A DNA stretch of 64,000 bases from Aquincola sp. (GTDB taxonomy: Bacteria > Pseudomonadota > Gammaproteobacteria > Burkholderiales > Burkholderiaceae_C): positions 1 to 64,000 of the forward strand of contig JALHQP010000001.1 of assembly GCA_022841885.1 (NCBI GenBank), given 5' to 3'. The notes beneath the pieces were generated by a model. It saw nothing but the letters and a program-made list of their open reading frames with translations, was not told the DNA's origin and did no database searches. The translations under genes were made by a program, and so were the position numbers. Positions 8,585 through 24,024 of the stretch are shown here, piece after piece. Numbering within the stretch: the stretch's first letter is position 1; every line of letters begins with the position of its first letter.

Positions 8585-8651
8585 CGCGGACGGCCATGCA
8601 CGCCGAGCTCATGAGGCGCTTCGACAGACTCAGCCGGAACGGGGGTCGTGG

Positions 8652-9584
8652 TCACTCCGCGACCGTGTCGGCTGCCACTGCGGTGATCGGCCTGCGCTGT
8701 TGCGTTGCCTCGCGCACGTTGAGCCAGGCACTCGCGGCGCCGCACGCACCGATGATCACCATGCCCAGCCAGCCCCAGCCGTCGGGCACGACGCCGAAGG
8801 CGATCCAGCCGGCCAGCGCGGCGGTGGCGAGCTGCACGTATTGGAAGGGCATCAGGGTCGAGGCAGGCGCCTTGCCGAGCGCCATGATCAGCAGCAGGTG
8901 GCCGGTGGTGCCGAGCAGCGCCACGGCGGTCAAGGCGATGAGTGCGTTGGGCGGTGCGGCCATCAGCGCGTCGATCGGGTCAGCCACGCTGGCCAGCAGG
9001 ATCGGCGTGGCAATCGCCAGGCCGGTGGCGCCGGTGTAGAAGTTGGTGGTGAACGGATCCTCGTGCGGCGCGTAGCGGCTGGTCATGATCTGGAACGCCG
9101 CGTTGGCGCAGGCCGCCGCCAGCGGCAGCAGCGCCGCCCAGCCGATCACGCCGCTGCCCGGCCGCACCACGATCAGCGCGCCGATGAAGCCCAGCGCCAC
9201 CAGGATCCAGCGCAATCGCGAGACACGTTCGTGCAGCCAGATGCGCGCCATCAGCGTGGCCGCCAGCGGCGTCAGCATCACGATGGCGGTGAACTCGGCC
9301 ACCGGCATGCGGCGCAGCGCGGCAAACGCCATCGCCGAAGCAAAGGCGAGCAGCGCGCCGCGCGCGATCTGGAACATCGGGTTGGCGGTGCGGAAGGACT
9401 TGCCCGAAAACACGATCCACGCCGTCATCACCAACGCGTGCACCGCGTAGCGCGCCCACAGCACGACCGCGACCACAACGAACGCGCCGACGTAGCGCAC
9501 CGTGGTGTCCATCGTCGCGAAGCAGCTTGCCGCGCCGATCACCAGCGCGATGCCGAGCAAGGGGTTCGGGCGCGAGTCGCTCAC
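8652..9584 (-). CDS. EamA/DMT-superfamily exporter
   Basis: About 310 residues with ten predicted membrane helices in two EamA halves. Landmarks are LGIALVIGAASCFATMDTTVRY in helix 1, the PVAEFTAIVMLTPLAATLMA segment of helix 4, and the second-half repeat ALIALTAVALLGTTGHLLLI with STLMPFQYVQLATAALAGWI. DMT proteins export metabolites such as amino acids or nucleosides; the substrate here is not predictable. The GTG start at 9582-9584 is chosen because its GTGA overlaps the stop of the PHP-domain gene upstream, so the two are translationally coupled. Confidence 0.9.
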   Translation of the reverse strand: MSDSRPNPLLGIALVIGAASCFATMDTTVRYVGAFVVVAVVLWARYAVHALVMTAWIVFSGKSFRTANPMFQIARGALLAFASAMAFAALRRMPVAEFTAIVMLTPLAATLMARIWLHERVSRLRWILVALGFIGALIVVRPGSGVIGWAALLPLAAACANAAFQIMTSRYAPHEDPFTTNFYTGATGLAIATPILLASVADPIDALMAAPPNALIALTAVALLGTTGHLLLIMALGKAPASTLMPFQYVQLATAALAGWIAFGVVPDGWGWLGMVIIGACGAASAWLNVREATQQRRPITAVAADTVAE

Positions 9585-10456
9585 GGGGCGGGAAAGTGCA
9601 CCCGGTCGCGCAGCGCGGTCCACACCGGCGTCAGCCGCCCCGGCAGGTCGGGCAGCGTGCCGAGCCCGGTGCGGCTTTCGTCGGGCGCGTGGAAGTCGCT
9701 GCCGCGCGAGGCGAGCAGCCCGAACTCGAGCGCCAGGTCGGCGTACTTGATGCGCTCGGCTTCGCTGTGGCTGCCGGTCATGACCTCGACGCCTTGGCCG
9801 CCGTGGGCCTTGAACTCGGTGAAAAGCGCGTACTCCTCGGTCGGCGTGAAGCGCGTGTAGCGCGCCGGGTGCGCGATCACCGCCAGGCCCCCCGACTCGG
9901 TGATCCAGTGCACCGCCTCGCCGAGCTTGGCCCAGCGGTGCGCAACGAAGCCGGGCTTGCCGTCGGTGAGGAAGCGCCGGAACACTTCGGAGGTGTCGGC
10001 GCAGTGGCCGGTGTCGACCAGCCAGCGCGCAAAGTGGGTGCGCGAGATCAGTTCGGGGTTGGCGACGTACCGCAGCGCCCCCTCGAAAGCGCCCGGGATG
10101 CCCACGGCCGCCAGACCGGCCGCCATCTCGAGTGCGCGTTCCTCGCGCCCGCCGCGTGTGCGCGCCAAGCCCTCGACCAGCGCCGTGTCGTCGGGATCGA
10201 TGCCCAGGCCGACGATGTGGACCGTCTCGCCCGCGAAGGTGACCGAGACCTCCACGCCGGCCAGGTAGGCCATGCCCAGGGCCAGCGCGGCCTCGCGTGC
10301 GCGGTGCTGGCCGCGCACCTCGTCGTGATCGGTCAGCGACCAGAGCTGCACGCCGCCGGCAGCGGCGCGCGCGGCCAGCGCCTCGGGGGCGAGCGTGCCG
10401 TCACTCACAGTCGAGTGGCTGTGCAGGTCGGCGTTGGTCAGATGGTTCAGGTTCAA
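9581..10456 (-). CDS. PHP-domain phosphoesterase (RNase AM/YciV-like)
   Basis: About 291 residues with all the metal-binding motifs of a PHP hydrolase: DLHSHSTVSDG near the N-terminus, LTDHDEVRG, HIVGLGID, VIAHPARYT and GSDFHAPDE close to the C-terminus. The closest known group is the E. coli YciV/Rnm family, which hydrolyses 3',5'-nucleotides and trims RNA 5' ends. The start is probably TTG at 10454-10456 (LNLNHLTNADLHSHS); no ATG or GTG lies nearer and upstream residues look non-coding. It is divergent from the TonB receptor gene, whose ATG is about 120 bases away. Confidence 0.88.
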   Translation of the reverse strand: MNLNHLTNADLHSHSTVSDGTLAPEALAARAAAGGVQLWSLTDHDEVRGQHRAREAALALGMAYLAGVEVSVTFAGETVHIVGLGIDPDDTALVEGLARTRGGREERALEMAAGLAAVGIPGAFEGALRYVANPELISRTHFARWLVDTGHCADTSEVFRRFLTDGKPGFVAHRWAKLGEAVHWITESGGLAVIAHPARYTRFTPTEEYALFTEFKAHGGQGVEVMTGSHSEAERIKYADLALEFGLLASRGSDFHAPDESRTGLGTLPDLPGRLTPVWTALRDRVHFPAP

Positions 10457-10574
10457 GCGGCCGAATTGTCTCAGGACCGGATTCGTCCCAGGGCGACCAG
10501 GGCGTTCGCGCGCTCGCCAGATGCGGGTAACTGGCAGGAGGCGAGCGCGGCGCGGCTCGTGCAACATCGGCGAC

Positions 10575-12686
10575 ATGTCGCCTCGTCCTCTTGCTGCGCT
10601 GGCCGCTGCGTGGGCCGCCGTCCTTGCGCCTGCTCAGGCCCAGACCACGGAACAGACCATCGTGATCACCGGATCGGTGACCGAACGCGCCGCCTTCGAC
10701 GCGCCGTACGCGATCGGCGTGGTCGATGCGCAAGCGCTGCGCGCCGCCGGGCCGATGGCCAACCTGTCGGAGGCGATGGCGCGCGTGCCCGGCCTCGTCG
10801 TCGCCAACCGATACAACTACGCGCAGGACCTGCAGATCAGCACGCGCGGCTTCGGCGCGCGCGCCGGTTTCGGGGTGCGCGGCGTGCGCCTGTACACCGA
10901 CGGCATCCCGGCCTCGATGCCCGACGGCCAGGGCCAGGTCAGCCACTTCGACCTCGCCGGTGCGCAGCGCATCGAGGTGCTGCGCGGTCCGTTCTCGGTG
11001 CTCTACGGCAACGGCTCGGGCGGCGTGATCGCGGCTTTCAGCGCGCCGGTGCGAGAGCGGCGATTCGAGACCGCGCTCGACATCGGCGACTTTGGCCTGC
11101 GCCAATGGCGCGTCGGCGCGCAGGCGCCGCTCGGCGACGGGCTGGAGGCGCGCGTGGCCGCCTCCGACCTCGAGTGGGACGGCTTTCGGCCTCAGAGCGC
11201 AGCGCGCAAGACCAGCGTCAACCTGCGCCTGGCGTGGCAAGGTGCGCATGACCGCGTGCTCGTCGCTGCCGGCGCGCTCGACCAGCCGGCCGACGATCCG
11301 CTGGGCCTGACACGCGCCCAGTTCGACGCCGACCCGGCGCAGACCACCCCGCAGGCGACTCAGTTCGACACCCGCAAGACCCTGCAGCAGCAGCAGCTCG
11401 GCGTGCGCTGGGTGCATCGATTCGGCGATGGATTCCTGGCCGAGAGCGCGCTCACCGCCTACGCCGGCGAGCGCGCGGTGAGACAGTTCCTGGCCATCGC
11501 GGCGGCCACGCAGAGCAATGCGCGCCATGGCGGCGGCGTGATCGACTTCGACCGCCGCTACGACGGCCTCGACGCGCGGCTGACCTGGCGCCTGGGCGCG
11601 GCCACGCTGGTCACCGGCGCCGCGCTCGAACGACAGGCCGACGACCGGCGCGGCTCCCTCAACTACACCGGCACGGTGGCCGCACCGACCTACGGCGTGA
11701 TCGGTGCGCTGCGCCGCGACGAGACCAACCGCGCCACCAGCCGCGACCTGTACGCGCAGCTCGAGGCGCCGCTGACCGAGGCCTTCACGCTCGCCGGCGG
11801 CGTGCGCCGCGGGCGCGTCGAACTCGCGGCCACCGACCGCTACCTGTCCAACGGCGACGACTCGGGTCGGCGCGACTTCAGCTACACGAATCCGGTGCTC
11901 GGGCTGCGCTGGCAACTGGGGCGTGGCTTCAACCTGCATGCCAGCGTGGCGCGCGGCTTCGAGTCGCCGACGCTGGGCGAACTCGCCTACCGCACCGACG
12001 GCACGGGTGGTTTCAACACCACGCTCCTGCCGCAGAAGAGCCGCCAGGCCGAGGTCGGCCTCAAGTGGAAGCGCGCCGACGGTGCGTTGTCGGCGGACGC
12101 GACGCTGTTCCGCATCACGGTCGACGACGAGATCGGCGTGGCCACCAACGCCGGCGGGCGCCAGAGCTTCCGCAACGTCGGTCGCACGCTGCGTGAGGGG
12201 GCCGAGTTCTCGCTCGGCGGTCAGCTCGCGCGCGACTGGCGCGCGGCCGCCGCGGTGACGCTGCTCGACGCGACCTACCGCGACGCCTTCCTGGCCTGCG
12301 CCGGCATTCCCTGCACCGCGCCGACGGTGCCGGTGGCCGCCGGCAACCGCATCGCCGGCACGCAGCGTGGCCTCGCGTTCGCCGAACTGGCGTGGACACC
12401 GCGTGCCGGGACCGAACTCGCGCTCGAAGCGCGCGCGGCCTCGGCGCTGACCGCCAACGACACCAACAGCGAGGCGGCGCCGCGCTACCACCTGTGGGCG
12501 CTGCGGGCGAGCCAGCGCTACGCGTTGTCGCAGGGCCTCACGCTCGAACTGCTGGCGCGCCTGGACAACGCCGCCGACCGTGCCTACGCCGGCAGCGTGA
12601 TCGTCAACGACGCCAATGGCCGCTTCTACGAACCCGGTTCGCCGCGGGCGTGGTTGCTGTCGGTGCGCCTGTCGAGCGCGTTCTGA
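10575..12686 (+). CDS. pqqU: TonB-dependent outer-membrane receptor, PqqU/YncD-like
   Basis: A 703-residue receptor: signal peptide MSPRPLAALAAAWAAVLAPA, a TonB box region around EQTIVITG, a plug domain with LSEAMARVPGLVVANR and YNYAQDLQISTRGFGAR, and a 22-strand barrel ending in the aromatic RLSSAF. Many blocks match E. coli YncD, now called PqqU: LYTDGIPASMPDGQGQ, IEVLRGPFSVLYGNGSGGV, YAGERAVRQF, ARGFESPTLGELAYR, DNAADRAYAGSVIVND and NGRFYEPG. PqqU imports the cofactor PQQ. A PQQ-type dehydrogenase gene lies about 3 kb away, which fits that role. The assignment rests on remembered similarity and needs an alignment. Confidence 0.8.
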   Translation: MSPRPLAALAAAWAAVLAPAQAQTTEQTIVITGSVTERAAFDAPYAIGVVDAQALRAAGPMANLSEAMARVPGLVVANRYNYAQDLQISTRGFGARAGFGVRGVRLYTDGIPASMPDGQGQVSHFDLAGAQRIEVLRGPFSVLYGNGSGGVIAAFSAPVRERRFETALDIGDFGLRQWRVGAQAPLGDGLEARVAASDLEWDGFRPQSAARKTSVNLRLAWQGAHDRVLVAAGALDQPADDPLGLTRAQFDADPAQTTPQATQFDTRKTLQQQQLGVRWVHRFGDGFLAESALTAYAGERAVRQFLAIAAATQSNARHGGGVIDFDRRYDGLDARLTWRLGAATLVTGAALERQADDRRGSLNYTGTVAAPTYGVIGALRRDETNRATSRDLYAQLEAPLTEAFTLAGGVRRGRVELAATDRYLSNGDDSGRRDFSYTNPVLGLRWQLGRGFNLHASVARGFESPTLGELAYRTDGTGGFNTTLLPQKSRQAEVGLKWKRADGALSADATLFRITVDDEIGVATNAGGRQSFRNVGRTLREGAEFSLGGQLARDWRAAAAVTLLDATYRDAFLACAGIPCTAPTVPVAAGNRIAGTQRGLAFAELAWTPRAGTELALEARAASALTANDTNSEAAPRYHLWALRASQRYALSQGLTLELLARLDNAADRAYAGSVIVNDANGRFYEPGSPRAWLLSVRLSSAF

Positions 12687-12709
12687 GCCCGGCCCGGGCG
12701 CCACGGCGC

Positions 12710-13774
12710 TCAGCCGCGGGGAGGCTTGCGCTGCCCCGCGAGCACGCGGTACACGGTGGCCCGGCTGACACCGAGGCGACGCGCCGCCTCGGCCACGTTG
12801 CCCTGTGCGCTGCGCACGGCCTGTCGGATCATCGCCGCCGTGCTGGCGCGCAGCGGCTGCACGCGCGGGGCCGTCTGAGCGGCGCGCAGTTGCAGGCGCA
12901 CGCCTGACCAGAGCGGCACCACCCGCGGCGGGTCGTCGCTGCGCTGGCCCATCAGCTGTTCGGGCGGCAACGCAAACACGTCCTCGAGCGTGACCGCAGC
13001 ATGCGCCGGCAGCGCCAGCATGTCGCGTGCCGAACGGTCGGCGCCGACGATGGCGCCCTCGCGGTCGACCGCCAGCAGACCCGCGTCCTCGTCGGCGGTG
13101 GCGCCCGGCCACTGCAGCGCGAACACCCGCTCATGCGGCCGTGCCAGCAGCAGCGCGGTCTCGATGCGCCGCACCATGCGCGCGGCCAGGTGCCGCAACT
13201 CGGGCCGCTCCTCAGCCAGCACGCCGGTGATGTCGAGCATGCCGATGCAGCGGCCGTCCGGATCGGCGATCGGCGCACCGGCGCAGCTGTAGACGGCGGT
13301 GTCCTCGAAGAAGTGCTCGCCCCGGTGCAGCCACACCGGGCGTTGCTCGCCGAGGGCGGCGCCGATCGCGGTGGTGCCCACGCTGCGCTCGCTCAGGTCG
13401 ACCCCCACGCGCGCGATGGCCGCCACCCGCCGGTCGGCCGCGTCCGGCGCGCCGCCGACAGCGGCGACGATGCCCTGGGCGTCGGTCAGCAGGCAGAAGT
13501 AGCGTGTCGGCGCGATCGTGCGCGCCAGGTCGTCGAGCACCGCAGCGGCGGCGGCGCGCAGCGGCTCGTTGGCTTCGAGGCAGCGGCGCAACGCGGCTTG
13601 CGTGACCACGTCGAAGCCGACGCGCTGCTGCGGTCGGTGACCCATGGCCAGGCAGCGCTGCCACGACTGCGCGATCCACGGCTCGGCGGTGTTGGCCTGG
13701 CCGGCCCCCTGCATGACGGCCGAGCGCGCGGCGGCGATGGCGCTCAGGCGCGGATCGTGGGCGGCGGTACTCAC
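12710..13774 (-). CDS. AcoR-like GAF/Fis-type regulator lacking the AAA+ domain
   Basis: About 354 residues. The N-terminal half (roughly residues 15-215) is the GAF sensory region of AcoR-type activators, with IAQSWQRCLAMGH, FCLLTDAQGIVAAVGG, RSVGTTAIGAALGEQRPVWLHRGEHF and GAPIADPDGRCIGMLDITG. A PAS-like part follows (LLAVDREGAIVGADRSARDML). The C-terminus is a Fis-type helix-turn-helix (GNVAEAARRLGVSRATVYRVL). The central sigma-54-activating AAA+ domain with GAFTGA is missing, so it cannot be a classical sigma-54 activator and probably works with sigma-70 or as a repressor. GTG at 13772-13774 is the likely start. It is divergent from aorA and is the obvious regulator of that operon. Confidence 0.85.
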   Translation of the reverse strand: MSTAAHDPRLSAIAAARSAVMQGAGQANTAEPWIAQSWQRCLAMGHRPQQRVGFDVVTQAALRRCLEANEPLRAAAAAVLDDLARTIAPTRYFCLLTDAQGIVAAVGGAPDAADRRVAAIARVGVDLSERSVGTTAIGAALGEQRPVWLHRGEHFFEDTAVYSCAGAPIADPDGRCIGMLDITGVLAEERPELRHLAARMVRRIETALLLARPHERVFALQWPGATADEDAGLLAVDREGAIVGADRSARDMLALPAHAAVTLEDVFALPPEQLMGQRSDDPPRVVPLWSGVRLQLRAAQTAPRVQPLRASTAAMIRQAVRSAQGNVAEAARRLGVSRATVYRVLAGQRKPPRG

Positions 13775-13836
13775 ACCGCGGATGGTGCCGCGCGGCGCGA
13801 GCCCGAGTGTCGCAATCTGAGAATTTCGGGGCGGGA

Positions 13837-13852
13837 CTAGGGTTCGCCCTAG
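13837..13852. promoter_or_regulatory. Inverted repeat CTAGGG-TTCG-CCCTAG in the regulator/aor intergenic region
   Basis: CTAGGG (13837-13842) and CCCTAG (13847-13852) are perfect inverted arms around TTCG, within an AT-enriched patch between the divergent regulator (start 13774) and aorA (start 13929). Its position suits an operator for the GAF/Fis-type regulator. I saw no convincing -24/-12 sigma-54 promoter here, which agrees with the regulator lacking the AAA+ domain. Confidence 0.5.
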
Positions 13853-13928
13853 GGATGCCCCCGGGAGGCCGCCGAACAATCATTCGTGAAACGGCGTGCA
13901 TCACGTGCGCCTTCACCGGAGACCGCAA

Positions 13929-14402
13929 GTGCAGAAGACGCTCCACATCAACCCGGAAAAATGTACCGGGTGCCTGCAGTGCGAGATGGCCTGTTCGTTC
14001 GAGAACTACGCCACCTACGCACCAGCCAAGTCGCGCATCAAGGTGTTCGACTTCCATCACACGGGCCGCAAGGTGCCCTACACCTGCACGCAGTGCGACG
14101 AGGCCTGGTGTCTGCACGCCTGCCCCGTCGAGGCGATCACGCTGGACAAGCTGACCGGCGCCAAGGTCGTGAACGAAACCACCTGCGTCGGCTGCAAGGT
14201 GTGCACGATCAGCTGCCCGTTCGGCACCATCAACTACGTGCAGGAGACGGGCAAGGTGCAGAAGTGCGACCTGTGCGGCGGCGAGCCGGCCTGCGCGGAT
14301 GCCTGTCCGACCGGCGCGATCACGTATGTCGATGCCAACTGGACCGGCCTGAACAAGATGCAGGCCTGGGCCGACAAGCTCGGCAACCAAGCTTCAGCCT
14401 GA
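13929..14402 (+). CDS. aorA: AorA, four-cluster ferredoxin subunit of tungsten aldehyde oxidoreductase
   Basis: About 157 residues with sixteen cysteines in four 4Fe-4S motifs: CTGCLQCEMAC, CTQCDEAWCLHAC, CVGCKVCTISC, and CDLCGGEPACADAC. This is the polyferredoxin subunit found with the tungsten aldehyde oxidoreductases of Aromatoleum and relatives, passing electrons from AorB towards AorC. It is a DMSO-reductase-beta-like fold without membrane segments. The start is the GTG at 13929, preceded by CCGGAG about nine bases upstream; it begins the operon with aorB following after 11 bases. Confidence 0.9.
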   Translation: MQKTLHINPEKCTGCLQCEMACSFENYATYAPAKSRIKVFDFHHTGRKVPYTCTQCDEAWCLHACPVEAITLDKLTGAKVVNETTCVGCKVCTISCPFGTINYVQETGKVQKCDLCGGEPACADACPTGAITYVDANWTGLNKMQAWADKLGNQASA

Positions 14403-14413
14403 GGAGAAACGTC

Positions 14414-16261
14414 ATGTCCTGGGCAGGAAAGATTCTTCGTGTCGATCTCGGCAAGGGCACGTGCAAGAGCGAGCCGCTGAACATGGACTGGGCGCGCGCC
14501 TACCTCGGCTCGCGCGGGCTGGCGACGAAGTACATCGTCGAGGAGGTCGACCCCAAGGTCGACCCGCTGTCGCCGGCCAACAAGATCATCTGGGCCACGG
14601 GCCCGCTGACCGGCACGATGGCCTCCACCGGCGGTCGCTACACGGTGGTGACCAAGGGGCCGCTGACCGGCGCCATCGCCTGCAGCAACTCGGGCGGCTA
14701 CTGGGGCGCCGAGCTGAAGATGGCCGGCTGGGACATGGTCATCTTCGAAGGCAAGAGTGCCAAGCCGGTGTACCTGTTCATCGAGGACGGCAAGGCCGAG
14801 CTGCGTGACGCGGCGCACCTGTGGGGCCAGAGCGTCTGGCACACCGAAGAGACGATCAAGAAGCAGCACCAGGATCCGTTGATTCGCGTGTCTTCCATCG
14901 GCCTGGCGGGCGAGAACCAGGTGCTGTTCGCTGCCGTGGTCAACGACCTGCACCGGGCGGCCGGCCGCTCGGGCGTGGGCGCGGTGATGGGCAGCAAGAA
15001 CCTGAAGGCCATCGCGGTGCGCGGCACGCTGGGCGTGGGCAATCTGCATGACCCGAAGGGCTTCATGCAGGTGACCAAGGAGAAGAAGAAGATCCTGGCC
15101 GACAACGCGGTCACGGGCCAGGGCCTGCCGACCTATGGCACCCAGGTACTGATGAACGTCATCAACGAGATCGGCGCGCTGCCGACGCGCAATCACCGCG
15201 ACAGCCAGTTCGAGGGCGCGAAGGACATCTCGGCCGAGGCGATGGCCACGCCACGCAAGAGCGATGGCAAGGCCCAGCTCGTCACCAACCAGGCCTGCTT
15301 CGGCTGCACCATCGCCTGCGGCCGCATCAGCAAGATCGACCAGACGCACTTCTCGGTGCAGAACAAGCCGCAGTACTGGGGCGCCACCGGGGGCCTGGAG
15401 TACGAGGCGGCCTGGGCGCTCGGCGCGGCCAACGGTGTCAACGACATCGAGGCGCTGCAGTACGCCAACACCATCTGCAACGAGCAGGGCATGGACCCCA
15501 TCAGCTTCGGCGCCACCATCGGTGCGGTGATGGAGCTCTACGAGATGGGTGTGCTCAAGGCGGAGCAGATCGGCACCGAGGCGCCGTTCGGGTCGGCCAA
15601 GGCGCTGTGCGAGCTGGCCGACATGACGGCCCGGGGCGTGGGCTTCGGCAAGGAGATCGGTCAGGGCAGCAAGCGCCTGACCGCCAAGTACGGTCACCCC
15701 GAGCTGTCGATGAGCGTCAAGGGCCAGGAGTTCCCGGCCTACGACGCGCGCGGCATCCAGGGCATGGGCCTGACCTATGCCACCAGCAACCGCGGCGCCT
15801 GCCACCTGCGCAGCTACACCGTGGCCAGCGAGGTGCTCGGCATCCCGGTCAAGACCGACCCGTTGGTGGCCGACGGCAAGCCTGAACTTGTGATGGCCTT
15901 CCAGGACGCCACTGCCGCGTTCGACTCGGCCGGCATCTGCATCTTCACCAGCTTTGCCTGGGGCCTGGCCGACGTGGCGCCGCAGGTGGCCGCGGCCTGC
16001 GGGCCCGAGTTCACGCTCGAGAACCTGAGCAAGATCGGCGAGCGCATCTGGAACATGGAGCGCGACTTCAACAACAAGGCCGGCTTCACCGCCAAGGACG
16101 ACAACCTGCCGCCGCGCCTGCTCAACGAAGCCGCCAAGACCGGGCCGGCCAAGGGCCTGACCAGCAAGCTGCCCGAGATGCTGCCGAAGTACTACGCGGT
16201 GCGCGGCTGGAACGCCGACGGCACCTTGAAGCCCGAGACGCGGGCGCGCCTGGGCCTCTGA
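14414..16261 (+). CDS. aorB: AorB, tungsten-containing aldehyde:ferredoxin oxidoreductase large subunit
   Basis: A 615-residue AOR-family catalytic subunit that oxidises aldehydes to acids (and can reduce acids) with a tungsten-bispterin and one 4Fe-4S cluster. The N-terminal domain shows GKILRVDLGKG, YLGSRGLATKYI, GTMASTGGRYTVVTKGPLTG and CSNSGGYWGAELKMAGWDM. Cluster ligands are Cys295, Cys298 and Cys302 (CFGCTIAC) and probably Cys509 (GICIFTSF). The active-site loop region LEYEAAWALGAANGV is present. A strong GAGGAG lies 8 bases before ATG. Length and motifs match the Aromatoleum-type enzyme. No tungstate transporter is in the window. Confidence 0.94.
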   Translation: MSWAGKILRVDLGKGTCKSEPLNMDWARAYLGSRGLATKYIVEEVDPKVDPLSPANKIIWATGPLTGTMASTGGRYTVVTKGPLTGAIACSNSGGYWGAELKMAGWDMVIFEGKSAKPVYLFIEDGKAELRDAAHLWGQSVWHTEETIKKQHQDPLIRVSSIGLAGENQVLFAAVVNDLHRAAGRSGVGAVMGSKNLKAIAVRGTLGVGNLHDPKGFMQVTKEKKKILADNAVTGQGLPTYGTQVLMNVINEIGALPTRNHRDSQFEGAKDISAEAMATPRKSDGKAQLVTNQACFGCTIACGRISKIDQTHFSVQNKPQYWGATGGLEYEAAWALGAANGVNDIEALQYANTICNEQGMDPISFGATIGAVMELYEMGVLKAEQIGTEAPFGSAKALCELADMTARGVGFGKEIGQGSKRLTAKYGHPELSMSVKGQEFPAYDARGIQGMGLTYATSNRGACHLRSYTVASEVLGIPVKTDPLVADGKPELVMAFQDATAAFDSAGICIFTSFAWGLADVAPQVAAACGPEFTLENLSKIGERIWNMERDFNNKAGFTAKDDNLPPRLLNEAAKTGPAKGLTSKLPEMLPKYYAVRGWNADGTLKPETRARLGL

Positions 16262-16280
16262 TCTTCCACTCATGCAAGGA

Positions 16281-16310
16281 CGGGGTGATGCGCCAGCGTC
16301 ACCCCGTTTT
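16281..16310 (+). terminator. Intra-operon intrinsic-terminator-like hairpin between aorB and aorC
   Basis: CGGGGTGA (16281-16288) pairs perfectly with TCACCCCG (16299-16306), with a 10-base loop, and is followed at once by TTTT. The hairpin lies 19 bases after the aorB stop and 6 bases before the aorC ATG. It has the form of an intrinsic terminator, though the T-run is short, so partial read-through is expected. It also lies where a ribosome-binding site for aorC would be; no good Shine-Dalgarno is visible otherwise. Confidence 0.65.
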
Positions 16311-16316
16311 CACTCC

Positions 16317-17588
16317 ATGACCAAGCACTTGATCCTCGGCGCCGGCCCGGCCGGCGTCATCGCGGCCGAGACGATCCGCAAGCACGCGCCGCAAGACGAG
16401 ATCACCATCGTCGGCGACGAGCCGGAGGCGCCGTACTCGCGCATGGCGATTCCCTACCTGCTGATGGGCAACGTCGGCGAGGAGGGCACGCACCTGCGCC
16501 ACGGCGCCGATCACTACGCCAAGCAACGCATCCAGGTGAAGCGCGGCGCACGTGCCAAGTCGGTCGACGTAGCGAACAAGACCGTGGCCTTCGACGACGG
16601 CTCGACGCTGGCCTACGATCGGCTGCTGATCGCCACCGGCTCGACGCCGGCCAATCCACCGATCCCCGGCATCCACAACGACGGTGTGCTGCACTGCTGG
16701 ACGCTGAAGGACGCCCGCGCGATCGCGCAGCGTGCGGTCAAGGGTGCACGCGTGCTGCAGATGGGGGCCGGCTTCATCGGCTGCATCATTCTCGAGGCGC
16801 TGGCCGCGCGCGGCGTGCAGCTCACGGTGGTGGAGATGGGCGACCGCATGGTGCCGCGCATGATGGGGCCGACGGCCGGCGGCATGATCCGCGACTGGTG
16901 CGAGGCCAAGGGCGTGCGCGTGTTCACCGGCACGCGCGTCGAGGCGATCGAGCCGCATGCACCCTTGCGTGTGCGCCTGTCCAACGGCCAGCACCTCGAG
17001 TGCGACCTGGTGATCAGCGCCACCGGTGTCAAGCCCAACATGGGCTTCCTCGAGAACAGTGGCATCACCTGCCTGCTCGGCGTGCTGACCGACGAGCACC
17101 TGCAGACCAACGTGCCGGGCGTCTACGCGGCGGGCGACTGCGCCGAAGCCTTCGACAAGGTCAGTGGCAAGACCATCGTCAGCGCGATCCAGCCCAACGC
17201 GGCCGAGCAGGCACGCGTGGCGGCGCTGAACATGGTGGGGCGCAAGACGGTGCTGCGCGGCGTGACGCAGATCAACGTGCTCGACACGCTGGGCCTGATC
17301 AGCGCGAGCTTCGGCGACTGGCAGGGCGTGCCCGGCGGCGAGCATGTCGAGCTGACCGACAAGGCCGCCGGCCGGCACCTGAGCCTGCAGTTCGGCGGTG
17401 AGCGCCTGGTGGGCTGCAACAGCGTCGGCTGGACCGAGCATGTGGGCGCGATGCGCGGCCTGGTCGAGGGCCAGGTGACGTTGGCGCCACTGTGGAAGCA
17501 GCGCCTGCTGCAGGATCCGACGCAGCTGATGGCAGCCTACCTCGCCAGCGCGCAGGCGCAGGAGCACAAGGCGCTGGTCCGGGCATAG
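16317..17588 (+). CDS. aorC: AorC, FAD/NAD(P)-dependent oxidoreductase subunit
   Basis: A 423-residue pyridine-nucleotide-disulfide-type flavoprotein. The FAD dinucleotide fold is HLILGAGPAGVIAAETIRK, the NAD fold is around VLQMGAGFIGCIILEAL, and the second FAD motif is GVYAAGDCAEAFDK. The redox-active CxxxxC of disulfide reductases is absent. In the Aromatoleum enzyme this subunit reduces NAD+ with electrons arriving through AorA. The ATG at 16317 matches the start of such proteins (TKHLILGAGPAG); an in-frame ATG at 16272 would add 15 residues encoded by the hairpin and is less likely. Confidence 0.9.
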   Translation: MTKHLILGAGPAGVIAAETIRKHAPQDEITIVGDEPEAPYSRMAIPYLLMGNVGEEGTHLRHGADHYAKQRIQVKRGARAKSVDVANKTVAFDDGSTLAYDRLLIATGSTPANPPIPGIHNDGVLHCWTLKDARAIAQRAVKGARVLQMGAGFIGCIILEALAARGVQLTVVEMGDRMVPRMMGPTAGGMIRDWCEAKGVRVFTGTRVEAIEPHAPLRVRLSNGQHLECDLVISATGVKPNMGFLENSGITCLLGVLTDEHLQTNVPGVYAAGDCAEAFDKVSGKTIVSAIQPNAAEQARVAALNMVGRKTVLRGVTQINVLDTLGLISASFGDWQGVPGGEHVELTDKAAGRHLSLQFGGERLVGCNSVGWTEHVGAMRGLVEGQVTLAPLWKQRLLQDPTQLMAAYLASAQAQEHKALVRA

Positions 17589-17605
17589 CGGGCATAGTGC
17601 GAGGG

Positions 17606-17860
17606 ATGCGCATCACCTTCAAGCTCTACGCCAGCCTGACGCAGCACCTGCCGGCCGACGCGCGGCAGAGCAACCGGATCGAACTCGACCTGCCCGAAGG
17701 CACGCCGATCGCGAAGATCATCGAGCCCTTCGGGCTGCCCGAGAAGCTGGTGCACCTGGTGCTGGTCAACGGCGTGTACGTGCCGCCGGCCGAACGCCTG
17801 AGCTACGTGCCGAAGGAGGGCGACGTGCTCGCGATCTGGCCGCCGATCGCCGGCGGCTAG
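17606..17860 (+). CDS. MoaD/ThiS-like small sulfur carrier of the aor operon
   Basis: An 84-residue ubiquitin-fold protein ending in the diglycine IAGG that is the signature of sulfur carriers. MRITFKLYASLTQHLP, LVHLVLVNGVYVP and EGDVLAIWPPIAGG match MoaD-type proteins that donate sulfur during pterin cofactor synthesis. Being inside a tungsten enzyme operon, it is probably the dedicated carrier for the tungsten-bispterin cofactor, in the position of aorD in Aromatoleum; that specialisation is inference. The start ATG lies 17 bases after aorC and has GAGGG immediately before it. Confidence 0.88.
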   Translation: MRITFKLYASLTQHLPADARQSNRIELDLPEGTPIAKIIEPFGLPEKLVHLVLVNGVYVPPAERLSYVPKEGDVLAIWPPIAGG

Positions 17861-17870
17861 GCCAGGGTCG

Positions 17871-18170
17871 ATGCAAGGCCACTACCCGCTCGTGTTCGAG
17901 CGCGAAATGGGCTGCACCGCCGACGAGCTGCGGGGCTGGCTGCCCGGGGCCTGCGGCGGCCGCGCACTGTCGTGGCGCCCGCAAGGCGTGGACGTCGCGC
18001 TCGAGGCGGGCAGCGTGGCCATCGATTGGGCATCGCTCGAGCCGCGTCGGATCGCGCTGATCACGCTGCCGCGCCTGCGCGTGCGCTTCGCCGCGCAAGG
18101 TGTCGACGAGCAGGCCTGGCAGCGCTTCATGCGCTACTTCGACCTCTATACGCAGCGCGGCGGCGGCTGA
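17871..18170 (+). CDS. Unknown small protein, last gene of the aor operon
   Basis: A 99-residue protein of no family I recognise. It has no signal peptide or membrane segment. Visible features are an acidic/Trp-rich first half (FEREMGCTADELRGWLPG), a Gly-rich ACGGRAL, a basic centre (EPRRIALITLPRLRVRF) and an aromatic C-terminal helix (QAWQRFMRYFDLYTQ). It begins ten bases after the MoaD-like gene and ends seven bases from the convergent NTF2-like gene, so it is the last gene of the five-gene operon, in the place of aorE. A role in cofactor insertion or assembly of the enzyme is a guess from position only. Confidence 0.75.
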   Translation: MQGHYPLVFEREMGCTADELRGWLPGACGGRALSWRPQGVDVALEAGSVAIDWASLEPRRIALITLPRLRVRFAAQGVDEQAWQRFMRYFDLYTQRGGG

Positions 18171-18177
18171 GTCGCGC

Positions 18178-18594
18178 TCAGCGGGGCGGCGGCGCGCCGA
18201 CCGCATTGGTGTTCTGTACCGCGCGGATGCGCCAGCCCCGCGACGTGGCCCGCAGCCACCAGGTGAACAGACCATGGCGCGGCGCGCGCGGCGTGCCGTC
18301 GGGGTCGAGGTCGCCGCGGATCGACCAGCCCTGGTGCACGAGCGCGAAAGACTCGCCGAGCGGCTGCACCTCGGTCTCGTGGCAGGCCCAGACGCTGTGC
18401 TGGAACTGGCTGCGGTGCATCGCTGCGTGCGAGGTTTCGATCTGCGCGCGGCCGCGCAGGCGGGTGGCGGCCACGGTGACGAGGTCGGCGTCTTCGGTGA
18501 ACAGTGCCGCCAGACGCGTCATGTCGTGCGCGTTCCACGCGTCTTCCCATTCGCGCGCGATCGCGCGGGCGGCTTCTTCGACGGTGGGGCTCAT
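18178..18594 (-). CDS. SnoaL/NTF2-like protein
   Basis: About 138 residues of the NTF2-like cone fold, of the SgcJ/EcaC subgroup. The N-terminal helices AIAREWEDAWNAHDMTRLAALF lead to EDADLVTVAATRLRGRAQI, and strands SFALVHQGWSIRG and GLFTWWLRATSRGWRIRAVQNTN complete the fold. Proteins of this group have no established common activity. The start ATG at 18592-18594 (MSPTVEEAARAI) is chosen because upstream residues look non-coding. It is transcribed towards the aor operon and divergently from the YdcF-like gene. Confidence 0.85.
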   Translation of the reverse strand: MSPTVEEAARAIAREWEDAWNAHDMTRLAALFTEDADLVTVAATRLRGRAQIETSHAAMHRSQFQHSVWACHETEVQPLGESFALVHQGWSIRGDLDPDGTPRAPRHGLFTWWLRATSRGWRIRAVQNTNAVGAPPPR

Positions 18595-18778
18595 GCGGGT
18601 CAGTGTGCCATGCGCAGTGCGAGTCCGCGCGCCGTGTCGGTCGTGACGAGCGTGCCGGAGCGCAGCGGCACTCGTCAAGCTGTTGCTCATCATGCCGTTG
18701 CTGCTGCATGGGGCAGGCCGGGGCAACGACCGCTGCTACGGCACAATCGCGCCCTTCGAGAGACGTGGGGAAACGTCC

Positions 18779-19594
18779 GTGAACGAGATCTTCCTGTCGT
18801 TGGGCATCGAGTCGTGGAAACCGGTGCTGACTGCGCTGCTCTTGCCGCCGGCGCCATTGCTGTTGCTGGCCCTGCTGGGCGCGCGCGCGATCCTGTGGCG
18901 GCGCGGCCTGGGCTGGTTGCTGGTGCTGTTGTCGGCGCTGGGCCTGTGGTTCGGTGCCTGCGGCGCCGTGGCGGAGTGGCTGCAGAGTTCGCTGCTGTCG
19001 CCGCCGGCAGCGCTCTCTTCGGAACGGGTGGCCGAACTGCGCAAGGCTGCGGTCAAGCCCGGCGTTGCCATCGTCGTGCTCGGTGGGGGGCGCGAGGCCC
19101 GTGCGCCGGAGTACGGCGTGGCCAGCCTCTCGCCACTGGCTCTGGAGCGCCTGCGCTACGGCCTGTGGTTGGGACGCGAGACCGGCGCGCCCGTGATGTA
19201 CAGCGGTGGTCTCGGCCATGCGGCCGAACCGGGTGCCACCGAGGCCGAGGTGGCCAGCGCGATTGCCGCGCGCGAGTTCATGCGGCCGCTGCGCTGGACC
19301 GAATCGCGCGCACGGGACACCCGCGAGAACGCGCAGTTCAGCACCGCGATGCTCGCCGACCAGGGTGTGACGCAGCTGGTGCTCGTGACGCACGGCTGGC
19401 ACATGCCGCGCGCGCTGCGTGCGTTCCGCGACGCGGCCCAGCACAATGGGGCGAAGTGGGAAGTGGTGGCAGCACCGATGGGTCTGTCGCAACGCGTGGA
19501 GCGGCCGGCGCTGCGCTGGATCCCGTCGTCGGAAGGCTACCTGCTCGTGCGTGCCGTGCTGCGCGAGAAGATCGGCTGGTGGCTCGGCGCCTAG
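18779..19594 (+). CDS. YdcF-family (DUF218) membrane protein
   Basis: About 271 residues: two N-terminal membrane segments (LTALLLPPAPLLLLALLGA and GLGWLLVLLSALGLWFG), then a DUF218 domain with VAIVVLGGGRE, APVMYSGG, SRARDTRENA and LVLVTHGWHMPRALRAF. This is the layout of the ElyC/SanA/YdcF proteins, some of which act in envelope polysaccharide metabolism. The GTG at 18779 is preceded by GGGGAAA and gives a normal N-terminus for the group; the ATG codons upstream would add an unrelated stretch. Precise role unknown. Confidence 0.88.
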   Translation: MNEIFLSLGIESWKPVLTALLLPPAPLLLLALLGARAILWRRGLGWLLVLLSALGLWFGACGAVAEWLQSSLLSPPAALSSERVAELRKAAVKPGVAIVVLGGGREARAPEYGVASLSPLALERLRYGLWLGRETGAPVMYSGGLGHAAEPGATEAEVASAIAAREFMRPLRWTESRARDTRENAQFSTAMLADQGVTQLVLVTHGWHMPRALRAFRDAAQHNGAKWEVVAAPMGLSQRVERPALRWIPSSEGYLLVRAVLREKIGWWLGA

Positions 19595-19620
19595 GCCGCT
19601 GCCGCCCCGATTGAAGGCCC

Positions 19621-19658
19621 CATAAAGACAAACCCCTCCACGCCGAAGCGGGAGGGGT
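19621..19658 (-). terminator. Intrinsic terminator downstream of ubiD
   Basis: Read on the minus strand, ACCCCTCC and GGAGGGGT form an eight-base GC-rich stem (19632-19639 with 19651-19658) with a CGCTTCGGCG-type loop, followed by TTTGTCTTT (to 19621). It lies about 190 bases after the ubiD stop and about 27 bases after the convergent YdcF-like gene, so it is best oriented as the terminator for ubiD. A second small hairpin, GGTGGC-GAAA-GCCACC, precedes it. Confidence 0.7.
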
Positions 19659-19848
19659 GGGTGGCTTTCGCCACCGGTCGGGGATCGAGAGGTAATCTGT
19701 CCCGGGCCCCTTGGACGCAGAGACTGCGCCGCTGGTGTTTGCCTGCATCAGCAAGCAGATGCACGGTAAGTCAGGGGCGTGACTGCGGCAAGCCAATCCG
19801 AGCAATCGCTGCGCCGTTGCTCATAACGTTCGCGGCCTTGACATCCGG
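19659..19848. other. Non-coding stretch between the ubiD stop and its terminator
   Basis: No gene was recognised in these 190 bases. They include the hairpin GGTGGC-GAAA-GCCACC (about 19661-19676, read on the minus strand) and a stretch containing TAATCTGTCCCGGG (near 19694-19707) that resembles sequences often seen beside REP-associated transposases. No transposase gene is present. The stretch would be the 3' untranslated region of the ubiD message. Confidence 0.35.
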
Positions 19849-21414
19849 CTAGCCGCGCGGCGGGGTTGACATCACCGCATCGAAGGCGGCCTGAACGGCC
19901 TTGATCGCCTCGGCCGGCATCTGAATCACGCGGCCCCACTCGCGCTGCGTCTCGCCTGGCCACTTGTGCGTGGCATCGATGCCCATCTTGCCGCCCAGGC
20001 CACTCGTGGGCGACGCGAAGTCGAGGTAGTCGATCGGGGTCTGGTCCACCAGGGTCGTGTCGCGCACCGGGTCGACGCGCGTCGTGATGGCCCAGACCAC
20101 CTCCTTCCAGTCGCGGATGTTCACATCGTCGTCGGTGACGACGATGAACTTGGTGTACATGAACTGGCGCAGGAAGCTCCACAGGCCGAACATCACGCGC
20201 TTGGCGTGGCCGGCATAGGCCTTCCTGATCGAGATCACCGCCATGCGGTAGCTGCAGCCCTCGGGCGGCAGGTAGAAGTCGACGATCTCCGGAAACTGCT
20301 TCTGCAGGATCGGCACGAAGACCTCGTTCAGCGCCACGCCGAGGATGGCGGGCTCGTCGGGCGGCTTGCCGGTGTAGGTGGAGTGGTAGATCGGGTCGCG
20401 CCGGTGCGTCAGCCGGTCGATGCGAAAGACCGGGAACCAGTCCTGCTCGTTGTAGTACCCGGTGTGGTCGCCGAACGGGCCTTCGAGGGCGTGCAGGTAG
20501 CCGCCGCGCTCGACCAGCTTGATGCCGTGCTCGCTCTCGCCGCTGAAACCGGCGGGCGCGGTCGGGATGTGGCCCTCGAGCACGAACTCGGCGCTGGCCG
20601 GTGCTTGCAGTTTGAGAGCCCCGTCGCCGACCGAGGCGTCCACGACCTCGGTGCGGCCGCCACGCAGCAGGCCGGCGAACTGGTATTCCGACAGCGTGTC
20701 CGGCACGGGGGTCACGGCGCCGAGGATGGTCGCCGGATCGGCGCCGAGCGCGACCGCGATCGGGAACGGCCGGCCTGGATTGGCGTGCGCGAAGTCGCGG
20801 AAGTCCAGCGCCCCGCCGCGGTGGGCGAGCCAGCGCATGATCACTTCGCGCCGGCCGATGACCTGCTGGCGGTAGATGCCGAGGTTCTGCCGCACGCGCG
20901 GCACGGGCACGGCCTGCGGCCCGCGGGTGATGACCAGGCCCCAGGTGATCAGCGGGCCGGCATCGCCTGGCCAGCAGGTCTGCACCGGCAAGCGGCCGAG
21001 GTCGACTTCCGGCCCGTCGACCACCACCTCCTGGCACGGCGCCGAGCGCAGCGTGGCGGGCTTCATGTCCCACAGCGCCTTGACCATGGCGAGCAGGCGC
21101 CCGGCGTCCTTCAGGCCCTTTGGCGGCTCGGGTTCCTTCAGGCTGGCCAGCACCCGGCCGACTTGGCGCAGGTCGTCGAGGCTCTCGGCACCCATGCCAA
21201 AGGCCACCCGGCGCGGCACCCCAAACAAGTTGATCAGGGCCGGAATTTTGTAACCTACTGGATTTGTAACCAGTATGGCCGGCCCGCCGGCGCGCAACAC
21301 CTGGTCAGCGAGCGCTGTCATTTCCAGCCGCGTCGACAAAGGCTCGGCCATCCGTTTCAACTCGCCGAGGCTTTCGAGCTGGCCGATGAAGTCGCGCAGA
21401 TCCTTGTATTTCAT
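19849..21414 (-). CDS. ubiD: UbiD, 4-hydroxy-3-polyprenylbenzoate decarboxylase
   Basis: A 521-residue prenyl-FMN-dependent decarboxylase of ubiquinone biosynthesis. The sequence follows E. coli Ubi[61 protein letters not shown], the Glu-containing [40 protein letters not shown], and [22 protein letters not shown] with the C-terminal [14 protein letters not shown]. It is a single gene with its own AT-rich upstream region and a terminator. The UbiX partner that makes the prenylated flavin is not in the window. Confidence 0.96.
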
Positions 21415-21447
21415 TCCTGGATGGAATTTAAGACATCAAATTTATTG

Positions 21448-21477
21448 TTGACTGGTTATTAGGCGGCTTCCTAGAAT
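21448..21477 (+). promoter_or_regulatory. Sigma-70-type promoter for the lytic transglycosylase gene
   Basis: TTGACT (21448-21453) and TAGAAT (21472-21477) are near-consensus -35 and -10 boxes with an 18-base spacer, in an AT-rich patch between divergent ubiD and the transglycosylase gene (start 21634). This leaves a leader of about 150 bases containing a GGGTTAACCC palindrome. Confidence 0.6.
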
Positions 21478-21633
21478 CCGCCAGCCCTGAGAAAACAAGG
21501 GTTAACCCGCGGCGCAGATCGATACGAATGCCGCGGGACGCTGCCCGCCGCGGACCAACGCGGCCGATTATCTCCGCCGGCCCTGCGCGCGTTGCTCACG
21601 CGCGCAGCGGTGCGGTGGTGTGAAAGGACGAGA

Positions 21634-22533
21634 GTGACAGCGCCGCGTTTATTGAGTTCGCTGCTTGAGTCGTGTGGGGTCTTCCTGCGCGACGTGGGCC
21701 ATGGTTTGCTGGATGTCAGCCATAACGGACTGGCCCTGCTGGGCTTGGCCGTCGCCGCGGCCGGCATGTTCGTGGCCGGCCATCCCGACATGCGCCAGCA
21801 GATGGAAGTGTCGACGCTGGGCTGGCTGCAGGAGCGGCACGAGGCCCGGGCCGAACGTGACGGCAACCTGCTGGTGGCCTTGGCCGAGCCGGTGGCCGTG
21901 AACCGTGCCACCGCCGCCGATCCCCGGGCGCTGACCCGCCCGCAGGCGGCCGTGGCGGGCTGGCTCTCGCGCCGCTACAAGGTAGCGCCCGAACCCGTCA
22001 GCCGCCTGGTGCAGGAGGCGTGGACGCTCGGCCAGCGGGCGCAACTCGATCCGACGCTGATCCTGGCGATCATGGCCGTGGAGTCCAGCTTCAACCCGTT
22101 TGCCCAGAGCCCGGTCGGCGCCCAGGGCCTGATGCAGGTGATGACCCGGGTCCACGACGACAAGTACGAAGCCTTCGGCGGCCAGCACGCGGCCTTCGAC
22201 CCGGTGACCAACCTGCGCGTCGGCGTCCAGGTGCTCAAGGAATGCATCGCACGCGCCGGCAGCCTGGAAGGCGGGCTGCGCTACTACGTCGGCGCGGCAA
22301 ACCTGCCGGACGACGGTGGTTACGCTGCCAAGGTGCTCGGCGAGCAGGCAAACCTGAGGCTCGTGGCCTCCGGCCGTCAGCTGGCCGTCACGGTGCCGCA
22401 GGCGCCGCTCGTGGTTCCGGTGCGCAGCCCGGAGCCGTCGGCGCCACAGGCCCCCGTGGCCGACCAGACGGTCGATCCGGTGCCCCAAGCCGTGGCCCCG
22501 GTGCGCCTGGAGCGCGTCGCGCTGCTGCGCTGA
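21634..22533 (+). CDS. Membrane-anchored lytic transglycosylase (SLT domain)
   Basis: About 299 residues. One N-terminal membrane segment (NGLALLGLAVAAAGMFVAG, near residues 30-50) anchors a periplasmic goose-lysozyme-like SLT domain: DPTLILAIMAVESSFNPFAQS with the catalytic Glu, GAQGLMQVMTRVHDD, NLRVGVQVLKECI and GGLRYYVG. The enzyme cleaves peptidoglycan glycan strands to 1,6-anhydro ends. A Pro/Val-rich tail follows. The GTG at 21634 is preceded by AAAGGA at the right distance; the TTG at 21592 would add a poor N-terminus. It stands before the riboswitch-glyA unit but is functionally unrelated. Confidence 0.88.
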   Translation: MTAPRLLSSLLESCGVFLRDVGHGLLDVSHNGLALLGLAVAAAGMFVAGHPDMRQQMEVSTLGWLQERHEARAERDGNLLVALAEPVAVNRATAADPRALTRPQAAVAGWLSRRYKVAPEPVSRLVQEAWTLGQRAQLDPTLILAIMAVESSFNPFAQSPVGAQGLMQVMTRVHDDKYEAFGGQHAAFDPVTNLRVGVQVLKECIARAGSLEGGLRYYVGAANLPDDGGYAAKVLGEQANLRLVASGRQLAVTVPQAPLVVPVRSPEPSAPQAPVADQTVDPVPQAVAPVRLERVALLR

Positions 22534-22551
22534 GCGCGGCTACACTCGTTT

Positions 22552-22675
22552 CCCTGCGCGACTGGCGATAACGGCCGCCCGGGTTCGGCCCGGCGCCGAA
22601 GGTGGGCCACCACCGGGAAGCGCAGGCGCGGGCGGCAGGGCCGCCCGCCGCGTCCGCCGTTCGCCTGGGCAGCCC
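22552..22675 (+). promoter_or_regulatory. ZTP (pfl) riboswitch upstream of glyA
   Basis: The three conserved blocks of the ZTP/pfl aptamer occur in order: CGCGACTGGCGA (22557-22568), CCACCACCGGGAAGCGC (around 22607-22623) and CGCCTGGGCA (22662-22671). CTGCGC (22554-22559) pairs with GCGCAG further on as P1. A variable GC-rich hairpin lies between blocks two and three. ZTP riboswitches sense the purine precursor ZMP/ZTP when 10-formyl-tetrahydrofolate is short and switch on folate one-carbon genes, here glyA. CCCTCC just after the aptamer could pair with the GAGGA ribosome-binding site, suggesting translational control; that part is inference. Confidence 0.9.
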
Positions 22676-22742
22676 TCCGATCGACCTGCGTTGTTGTCGC
22701 GGTCGCCCGTGAAGGCCCATCTTTCAGATGAGGACTGCCGTC

Positions 22743-23993
22743 ATGTTCGACCGTTCCACCCACACCGTGGCCGCCATCGACCCCGAGGTCAATGCCGCCA
22801 TCCTGGCCGAAAACCGGCGCCAGGAAGAACACATCGAGCTGATCGCGAGCGAGAACTACACCTCGCCCGCCGTGCTGGCCGCGCAGGGCTCGCAACTCAC
22901 CAACAAGTACGCCGAGGGCTACCCCGGCAGGCGCTACTACGGCGGCTGCGAGCACGTCGACGTGGTCGAGACGCTGGCCATCGAGCGCTGCAAGCAGCTG
23001 TTCGGTTCCAAGCACGCCAACGTGCAGGCCAACTCGGGTTCGCAGGCCAACCAGGCGGTGTTCTTCGGCCTGCTGCAGCCGGGCGACACGATCATGGGCA
23101 TGAGCCTGGCCGAGGGCGGCCACCTCACGCACGGCATGGCGCTGAACATGAGCGGCAAGTGGTTCAAGGTCGTCAGCTACGGCCTCGATGCCGACGAGGC
23201 GATCGACTACGAGCAGATGGAGCGCGTGGCGTGCGAGGCCAAGCCCAAGCTGATCATCGCTGGCGCCTCGGCCTACAGCCTGCGCATCGACTTCGAGCGC
23301 TTCGCTCGCGTGGCGAAGTCCGTGGGCGCGCTGTTGATGGTCGACATGGCGCACTACGCCGGCCTGATCGCTGCCGGCGTGTATCCGAACCCGGTGCCGC
23401 ATGCCGATGTCGTGACTTCGACGACGCACAAGAGCCTGCGCGGCCCGCGCGGCGGCATCGTGGTCTGCAACGACGATGAGATCGCCAAGAAGATCAACAG
23501 CGCGATCTTCCCCGGCATCCAGGGCGGGCCGCTGATGCATGTGATCGCCGGCAAGGCAGTCGCCTTCAAGGAGGCGCTCGAGCCGTCGTTCAAGGTCTAC
23601 CAGCAGCAGGTGCTTGCCAATGCGCGCGTGCTGGCCGACACCCTGATCGAGCGCGGCCTGCGCATCGTGTCCGGGCGCACCGAGAGCCACGTGATGCTGG
23701 TCGACCTGCGGCCCAAGGGCATCACCGGCAAGGAAGCCGAAGCGGTGCTGGGCCGCGCCCACATCACCTGCAACAAGAACGGCATCCCGAACGACCCGCA
23801 AAAGCCGATGGTCACCAGCGGCATCCGCCTCGGCTCGCCGGCGATGACCACGCGCGGCTTCAAGGAGGCCGAAGCACGCCTGACGGCGAACCTGATCGCC
23901 GACGTGCTGGAGGCGCCGAGCGACGAGACGGTGATCGATGCGGTGCGCGCCAAGGTGGCTGCGCTGACGCGCGACTTCCCGGTGTATCGTTAA
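22743..23993 (+). CDS. glyA: Serine hydroxymethyltransferase GlyA
   Basis: A 416-residue PLP enzyme that converts serine and tetrahydrofolate to glycine and 5,10-methylene-tetrahydrofolate. Clear motifs are [65 protein letters not shown], and the PLP-lysine site [14 protein letters not shown]. The C-terminal [16 protein letters not shown] is present. The start is the ATG at 22743, because GAGGA lies 9 bases before it; an in-frame ATG at 22728 lies upstream of that Shine-Dalgarno. Expression is probably under ZTP riboswitch control. Confidence 0.97.
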
Positions 23994-24024
23994 CCCGACA
24001 GGCTGACCCGAAAGGACGCGCCGC

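Follow-up and report, generated by a model that had tools for sequence, protein, structure and literature searches.

The window analysed here, a 64,000-nt stretch of an Aquincola sp. genome, carries at 12710-18170 a tungsten aldehyde oxidoreductase operon together with a divergent regulator of the GAF/Fis type. Its genes and the features around the aorB-aorC junction are the following:

12710-13879, minus strand: regulator divergent from the aor genes; GAF and a Fis-type HTH among its domains (Pfam table)
13896..14402, plus strand: aorA, four-cluster ferredoxin subunit with Fer4 domains, used as tblastn anchor in relatives; start codon uncertain
14414..16261, plus strand: aorB, tungsten-cofactor aldehyde oxidoreductase subunit with AFOR_N and AFOR_C domains; stop codon TGA 16259-16261
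16276..16280, plus strand: AAGGA, resembling a ribosome-binding site; in the extended fold its AGGA is paired to the T-tract
16281..16306, plus strand: hairpin with an 11-pair stem, CGGGGTGATGC/GCGTCACCCCG, including one G-U pair, and a GCCA loop
16288..16320, plus strand: 10-codon ORF whose TGA (16318-16320) overlaps the aorC ATG as ATGA
16307..16310, plus strand: TTTT tract, with 5 T in the 9 nt 3' of the stem
16317..17588, plus strand: aorC, FAD/NAD-binding cap subunit with a Pyr_redox_2 domain; ATG 16317 set by homology
17606..17860, plus strand: MoaD/ThiS-like gene in the aorD position, with ThiS and Ub-Mut7C domains
17871-18170: 99-aa ORF without a Pfam match, directly 3' of the MoaD-like gene

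The divergent regulator, for which the Pfam table lists no AAA+ domain, may control the aor operon, and a GAGGAG motif lies upstream of the aorB start. With the aorB stop codon at 16259-16261 and the aorC start placed by homology at ATG 16317, the aorB-aorC gap extends over 55 nt (16262-16316).

An earlier note on this DNA had described, within this gap, an 8-base perfect stem followed by TTTT, and the observation was confirmed: CGGGGTGA (16281-16288) pairs with TCACCCCG (16299-16306), and TTTT follows at 16307-16310. The stem is longer than that description, with T16289-G16298, G16290-C16297, and C16291-G16296 also paired, so that its arms span 16281-16291 and 16296-16306 on either side of the GCCA tetraloop; outward pairing of the TTTT with AGGA 16277-16280 extends the helix to 15 pairs. 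The 58-nt stretch up to the aorC ATG folds at -27.3 kcal/mol, compared to -13.1 (sd 2.4) for shuffled sequences (z -5.88), and none of 200 shuffles was as stable. By this comparison the window hairpin has the G+C-rich stem-loop of an intrinsic terminator, and the TTTT directly after the stem supplies a U-tract, albeit at the low end among relatives. A search of the 4.08-Mb assembly for the exact 8-base stem pattern gave a single occurrence, and a reading as a dispersed repeat was rejected on that basis. A packaged terminator scan of positions 8000-24000, which needs 5 T in 8 after a stem of its own choosing, called 4 terminator-like sites vs. 5.7 in shuffles, i.e., no excess; the window hairpin was not among the sites called, probably because its stem extension consumes the T-tract. 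Rfam covariance models gave no match above threshold across 12500-18500 (one match, far below threshold, lay inside aorB on the other strand), and a known riboswitch or leader RNA family was rejected accordingly.

To place this hairpin in context, we examined aorB-aorC junctions in three draws of genomes. From the window's family, 299 genomes were drawn evenly, 88 of which had an AorB match; with distant homologues and fragments located at contig ends left aside, this family draw provided 86 loci, 82 of them with a gap, two (L187 and L188) with no adjacent aorC found, and two with no measurable gap. A class draw of 62 loci included 6 duplicates, 46 loci with a gap, 9 with no adjacent aorC found, and 1 that was too partial, while an order draw contributed 31 loci, one of which is common to the family draw. 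Together, these draws contain 158 distinct operons in which aorB and aorC are adjacent, and a shared transcript of these genes is assumed throughout. Under the strict rule, a hairpin had to reach -9 kcal/mol or lower with a loop of at most 10 and have at least 4 T among the 8 nt after it, in a gap of at least 30 nt. A further set of 78 loci, from the best 80 of 165 when ranked by similarity, gave 48 strict hairpins among 63 gaps of at least 30 nt (27/630 for shuffles) but overlaps the family draw, and was therefore not treated as independent.

Strict hairpins with a U-tract on the coding strand recur at this junction across relatives. In the family draw they were found at 50 of 82 junctions, i.e., in 50 of the 66 gaps of at least 30 nt, whereas 23 of 660 shuffled gaps passed the same rule. 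The class draw yielded 11 of 46 junctions (11 of 29 long gaps; shuffles 2/290) and the order draw 15 of 31 (14 of 30 without the locus common to the family draw), for 75 of the 158 distinct operons overall. Neighboring junctions behaved differently: in the family, strict hairpins were detected at 0 of 78 aorA-aorB and 0 of 64 aorC-aorD junctions, of which only the 10 and 20 gaps of at least 30 nt, respectively, were scanned, and in the class at 0 of 45 aorA-aorB (5 long gaps scanned) and 1 of 38 aorC-aorD junctions (11 long gaps scanned). When only long gaps of the family and class are compared, the contrast is 61/95 at aorB-aorC vs. 1/46 at neighboring junctions (Fisher p 6e-14), and stretches of the same length within aorB passed in 0 of 320 cases for the family and 2 of 145 for the class. 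Eleven AOR paralogues (L187, L188, L246-L254), with AorB 53-60% identical and no aorC found after aorB, had one strict and one additional relaxed hairpin in the first 80 nt after aorB. Some of these paralogues appear by eye to adjoin a MoaD-like gene directly, and all 11 genomes also have another aorB followed by aorC.

The tails of these hairpins were evaluated separately from the stems. The reverse strand passes the strict rule in 24 of the 66 long family gaps, so a good part of the family hairpins also have A-rich 5' flanks. If the tail rule is dropped, hairpins are found in 61 of 66 long family gaps, vs. 107 of 660 shuffles and 4 of 30 long neighboring gaps, and T after the stem (mean 4.7 of 9) exceeds A before it (2.8; p 7e-8, n = 61). 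The same excess was observed in the order draw (p 0.005, n = 18), and was not significant in the class draw (p 0.08, n = 22). A relaxed caller that admits longer or branched loops gave 57 of 82 in the family; calls that are strict or relaxed accept 147 of 660 family shuffles, and strict counts are therefore used, except for the tree states, the aorC-site groups, and the 85 short-ORF loci considered below, which are based on strict-or-relaxed calls.

Family hairpins share a typical organization, in which the aorB stop is followed by a spacer, the stem, a T-rich tract, often GGAG or a similar motif (35/50), and the aorC ATG. Stems have 5-15 pairs (median 10), and their sequences vary from clade to clade. 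The spacer between stop and stem is 19-38 nt in 37 of the 50, longer in 12, and shorter in 1, and in 49 of the 50 the G-C stem starts at least 19 nt past the aorB stop, beyond the mRNA footprint of a ribosome positioned at the stop codon. The stem end lies 16-31 nt before the aorC start in 43 of the 50, typically at about 22 nt.

Compensatory change was evident in one clade of 27 rows, 21 of which have gaps of at least 50 nt; 20 of these (L109 left out) were aligned without use of structure. Standard pairs fill 96.1% of cells, a percentage favored by the fact that all 20 rows have a strict hairpin, and 7 of 9 pairs show changes on both sides; none of 500 shuffles reached this level of pairing and covariation. 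Of the seven double changes, two are contributed only by the window row, whose alignment is uncertain; omitting this row leaves 5 of 9. Homology between the window stem, with tail TTTTCACT, and that of the sister clade L110-L112, with tail TTCTCACT, was judged by eye, whereas two automatic alignments put the window stem elsewhere. Other sequences also occupy this gap: those of L075, L088, L093, and L096, four Burkholderiales records, contain by eye the palindrome TTGGGGTCGGATCA...TGACCCCAA or a close variant, as though small repeats tended to insert into the aorB-aorC gap, and L180, L181, L182, and L191 have gaps of 175-197 nt rich in TTTTGCGT or TTCGCGT instead of a compact G-C hairpin. Taken together, position-specific enrichment, coding-strand T-tracts, and covariation in one clade mean that the comparison of aorB-aorC gaps in relatives favors the terminator proposed in the earlier note.

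The window copy is atypical of this set. Its U-tract is short (5 T in 9, within a family range of 4-8), its stem ends only 10 nt from the aorC start where relatives mostly have 16-31, and no Shine-Dalgarno (SD) sequence was detected upstream of ATG 16317 (anti-SD duplex +1.2 kcal/mol, vs. a median of -6.4 kcal/mol in those 73 operons from the family and order draws whose hairpin is strict or relaxed). The earlier statement that aorC has no good ribosome-binding site thus holds for the window but not in general, as GGAG, GAGG, or AGGA follows 35 of 50 family hairpins. The nearest relatives from the genus differ again, L189 with a 26-nt gap and no hairpin, and L109 with a 9-pair hairpin and 2 T in 8. 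In the window, the 10-codon ORF begins with the ATG at 16288, at the end of the 8-base 5' arm of the hairpin, and the AAGGA upstream (16276-16280) could serve it. Since aorC has no ribosome-binding site of its own, it is probably translated by re-initiation, and re-initiation from the 10-codon ORF (via the ATGA overlap) or from aorB would be the simplest route. Only 9 of the 85 loci with a strict or relaxed hairpin have a short ORF that carries an SD-like site and terminates close to the aorC start, and these ORFs differ in position and length; the window ORF is therefore treated as local, and a conserved leader peptide was rejected.

Hairpins are not a constant feature of these operons. The strict rule failed at 32 of 82 family junctions, 16 with gaps below 30 nt and 16 with longer gaps, 12 of the latter still having a hairpin with an insufficient tail, and at 35 of 46 class junctions. 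Loss of the filament helix of AorA was considered as a correlate of hairpin absence and rejected as a test, with the AorA C-terminal segment (judged by eye and length) kept in all 152 readable operons of the 158, i.e., 73 strict, 9 relaxed, and 70 hairpin-less, and present in slightly shortened form in L223 and L228, two class loci that lack a hairpin. This kept segment resembles that of Aromatoleum, where filaments are lost on its deletion. Because it is kept with and without a hairpin, the filament does not require the hairpin, and the link between hairpin and filament stoichiometry is weakened, since hairpin-less operons still encode the part of AorA needed for filaments. In the family and order draws, aorC sites of hairpin-less short-gap operons were weaker than those of hairpin operons (median -3.1 vs. 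-6.4 kcal/mol, n = 25 and 73, p 4e-4), a difference not seen in the class draw (p 0.40). Weak aorC sites in short-gap operons could represent a second way to limit AorC, but this is only suggestive because the class draw differs and because gaps of a few bases leave no room for a site.

We consider it probable that the window hairpin functions as a leaky internal intrinsic (Rho-independent) terminator which lowers aorC expression relative to aorAB. RNA polymerase transcribing aorAB would meet the hairpin and U-tract just past the aorB stop, where some polymerases would stop and leave an aorAB mRNA, while the remaining ones would continue past the junction and transcribe aorC and the MoaD-like gene. 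With read-through only partial, and one AorC nucleating each AorAB chain, less AorC would be made, and probable re-initiation in place of a ribosome-binding site may lower AorC further in the window. A terminator of intermediate strength would be expected to yield an AorAB excess of the order of 2-4 units per AorC. The hairpin lies where such a role would place it, between genes of one operon and upstream of the subunit presumed to be less needed. The enzyme premise of the earlier note also stands: AorAB protomers polymerise on a single AorC in Aromatoleum, with 2-4 AorAB units on the purified protein, according to the accessible text of PMC10413684, and the terminator reading is in line with this published filament, although an earlier purification had suggested equal subunit amounts (PMC6365974, in the part available). 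From structure, position, and comparative pattern we infer termination, its strength, and its purpose in setting the subunit ratio. The interpretation of the earlier note is thus partly supported, in that a terminator setting the subunit ratio is plausible and has comparative evidence in its favor, while its tie to stoichiometry is weakened by hairpin-less operons that keep the AorA tail.

Other functions of the hairpin would account for part of these data. It may mainly be a 3'-end stabiliser or processing boundary, with the operon mRNA cut between aorB and aorC and the aorAB mRNA shielded from 3' exonucleases, in which case the effect on the ratio would be equal but post-transcriptional. A protecting hairpin needs no U-tract, and in the family and order draws T after the stem exceeds A before it even without the tail rule, so we regard this as unlikely, despite a very stable extended fold in which the U-tract is paired with upstream bases, and despite precedents for processing at stem-loops in operons encoding complexes (PMC4423207 and PMC10311766, from the accessible portions). 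It is very improbable that the hairpin is instead a conditional terminator (attenuator), with read-through into aorC regulated, e.g., if ribosomes occupying the 10-codon ORF were to block the hairpin: the window does place AAGGA beside the 5' arm, ATG 16288 within it, and the end of the ORF at the ATGA shared with aorC, but the scarcity and variable positions and lengths of comparable ORFs among hairpin loci and the lack of an above-threshold Rfam match argue against it.

The hairpin might also have no effect on the ratio, either because aorC is transcribed from a promoter inside aorB or because the hairpin is a tolerated relic. Frequent changes of hairpin state would fit a relic, with at least 29 (22 of them within the family and order draws, strict-or-relaxed states) on the AorB tree, a FastTree phylogeny in which 36 of 151 inner branches are weakly supported, as would the other palindromes that entered the gap in some relatives. 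The roughly 22 nt from stem to start nevertheless leave little room for a promoter downstream of the stem, a sigma-70 consensus scan called no site in aorB or the gap (weak evidence), and covariation together with the absence of hairpins at neighboring junctions argues for selection at aorB-aorC; we therefore judge a lack of effect to be quite improbable. Returning to the leaky terminator, a broader and rather doubtful possibility is that read-through sets the length of the nanowire via the number of AorC nucleators per AorAB, with lineages of the order using either a hairpin plus ribosome-binding site or a short gap plus weak site, such that the conserved trait would be limitation of the nucleator and not the hairpin. 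If the terminator does fix the ratio of nucleator to repeat unit, a few bases would provide a simple genetic handle on wire length, which could be used in building longer or shorter conducting enzyme wires.

No paper on AorABC together with a terminator was found, and the accessible text on the enzyme contains no aor expression ratio or hairpin; within the portions available, the word "intergenic" is absent from PMC6365974 and PMC10413684, and "terminator" from PMC6365974. The aorABCDE operon of Aromatoleum aromaticum resembles that of the window in its order, aorA-aorB-aorC followed by MoaD-like genes (PMC6365974, PMC10413684, accessible parts), and its product forms AorAB filaments on one AorC (PMC10413684, accessible part). 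Internal intrinsic terminators are a known device, and what is new is the place, aorB-aorC. In Ruminiclostridium cellulolyticum, they set the stoichiometry of ABC importers by lowering the downstream transporter genes, with an efficiency that depends on T-tract and stem (PMC9045158, in the text available). The likeness extends to a stem-loop after the gene of the abundant subunit, to a U-tract poorer and a G-C stem longer than those of ordinary terminators, and to the ability of the U-tract to pair with upstream bases; the Ruminiclostridium cases nonetheless involve other proteins in another phylum, and termination there was established by Northern blots and reporters, whereas the aor hairpin is known from sequence (PMC9045158, same portions). 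In the archaeon Methanococcus maripaludis, Term-seq and blots identified internal termination sites in 38% of operons, some of them encoding protein complexes, and expression was reduced downstream (PMC10450193, accessible part). The aor case differs from Ruminiclostridium (PMC9045158, same portions) in that a cap which nucleates a filament is the partner presumed to be scarce, and what makes the aor hairpin interesting is that its action would fall on the subunit from which a conducting enzyme filament is nucleated.
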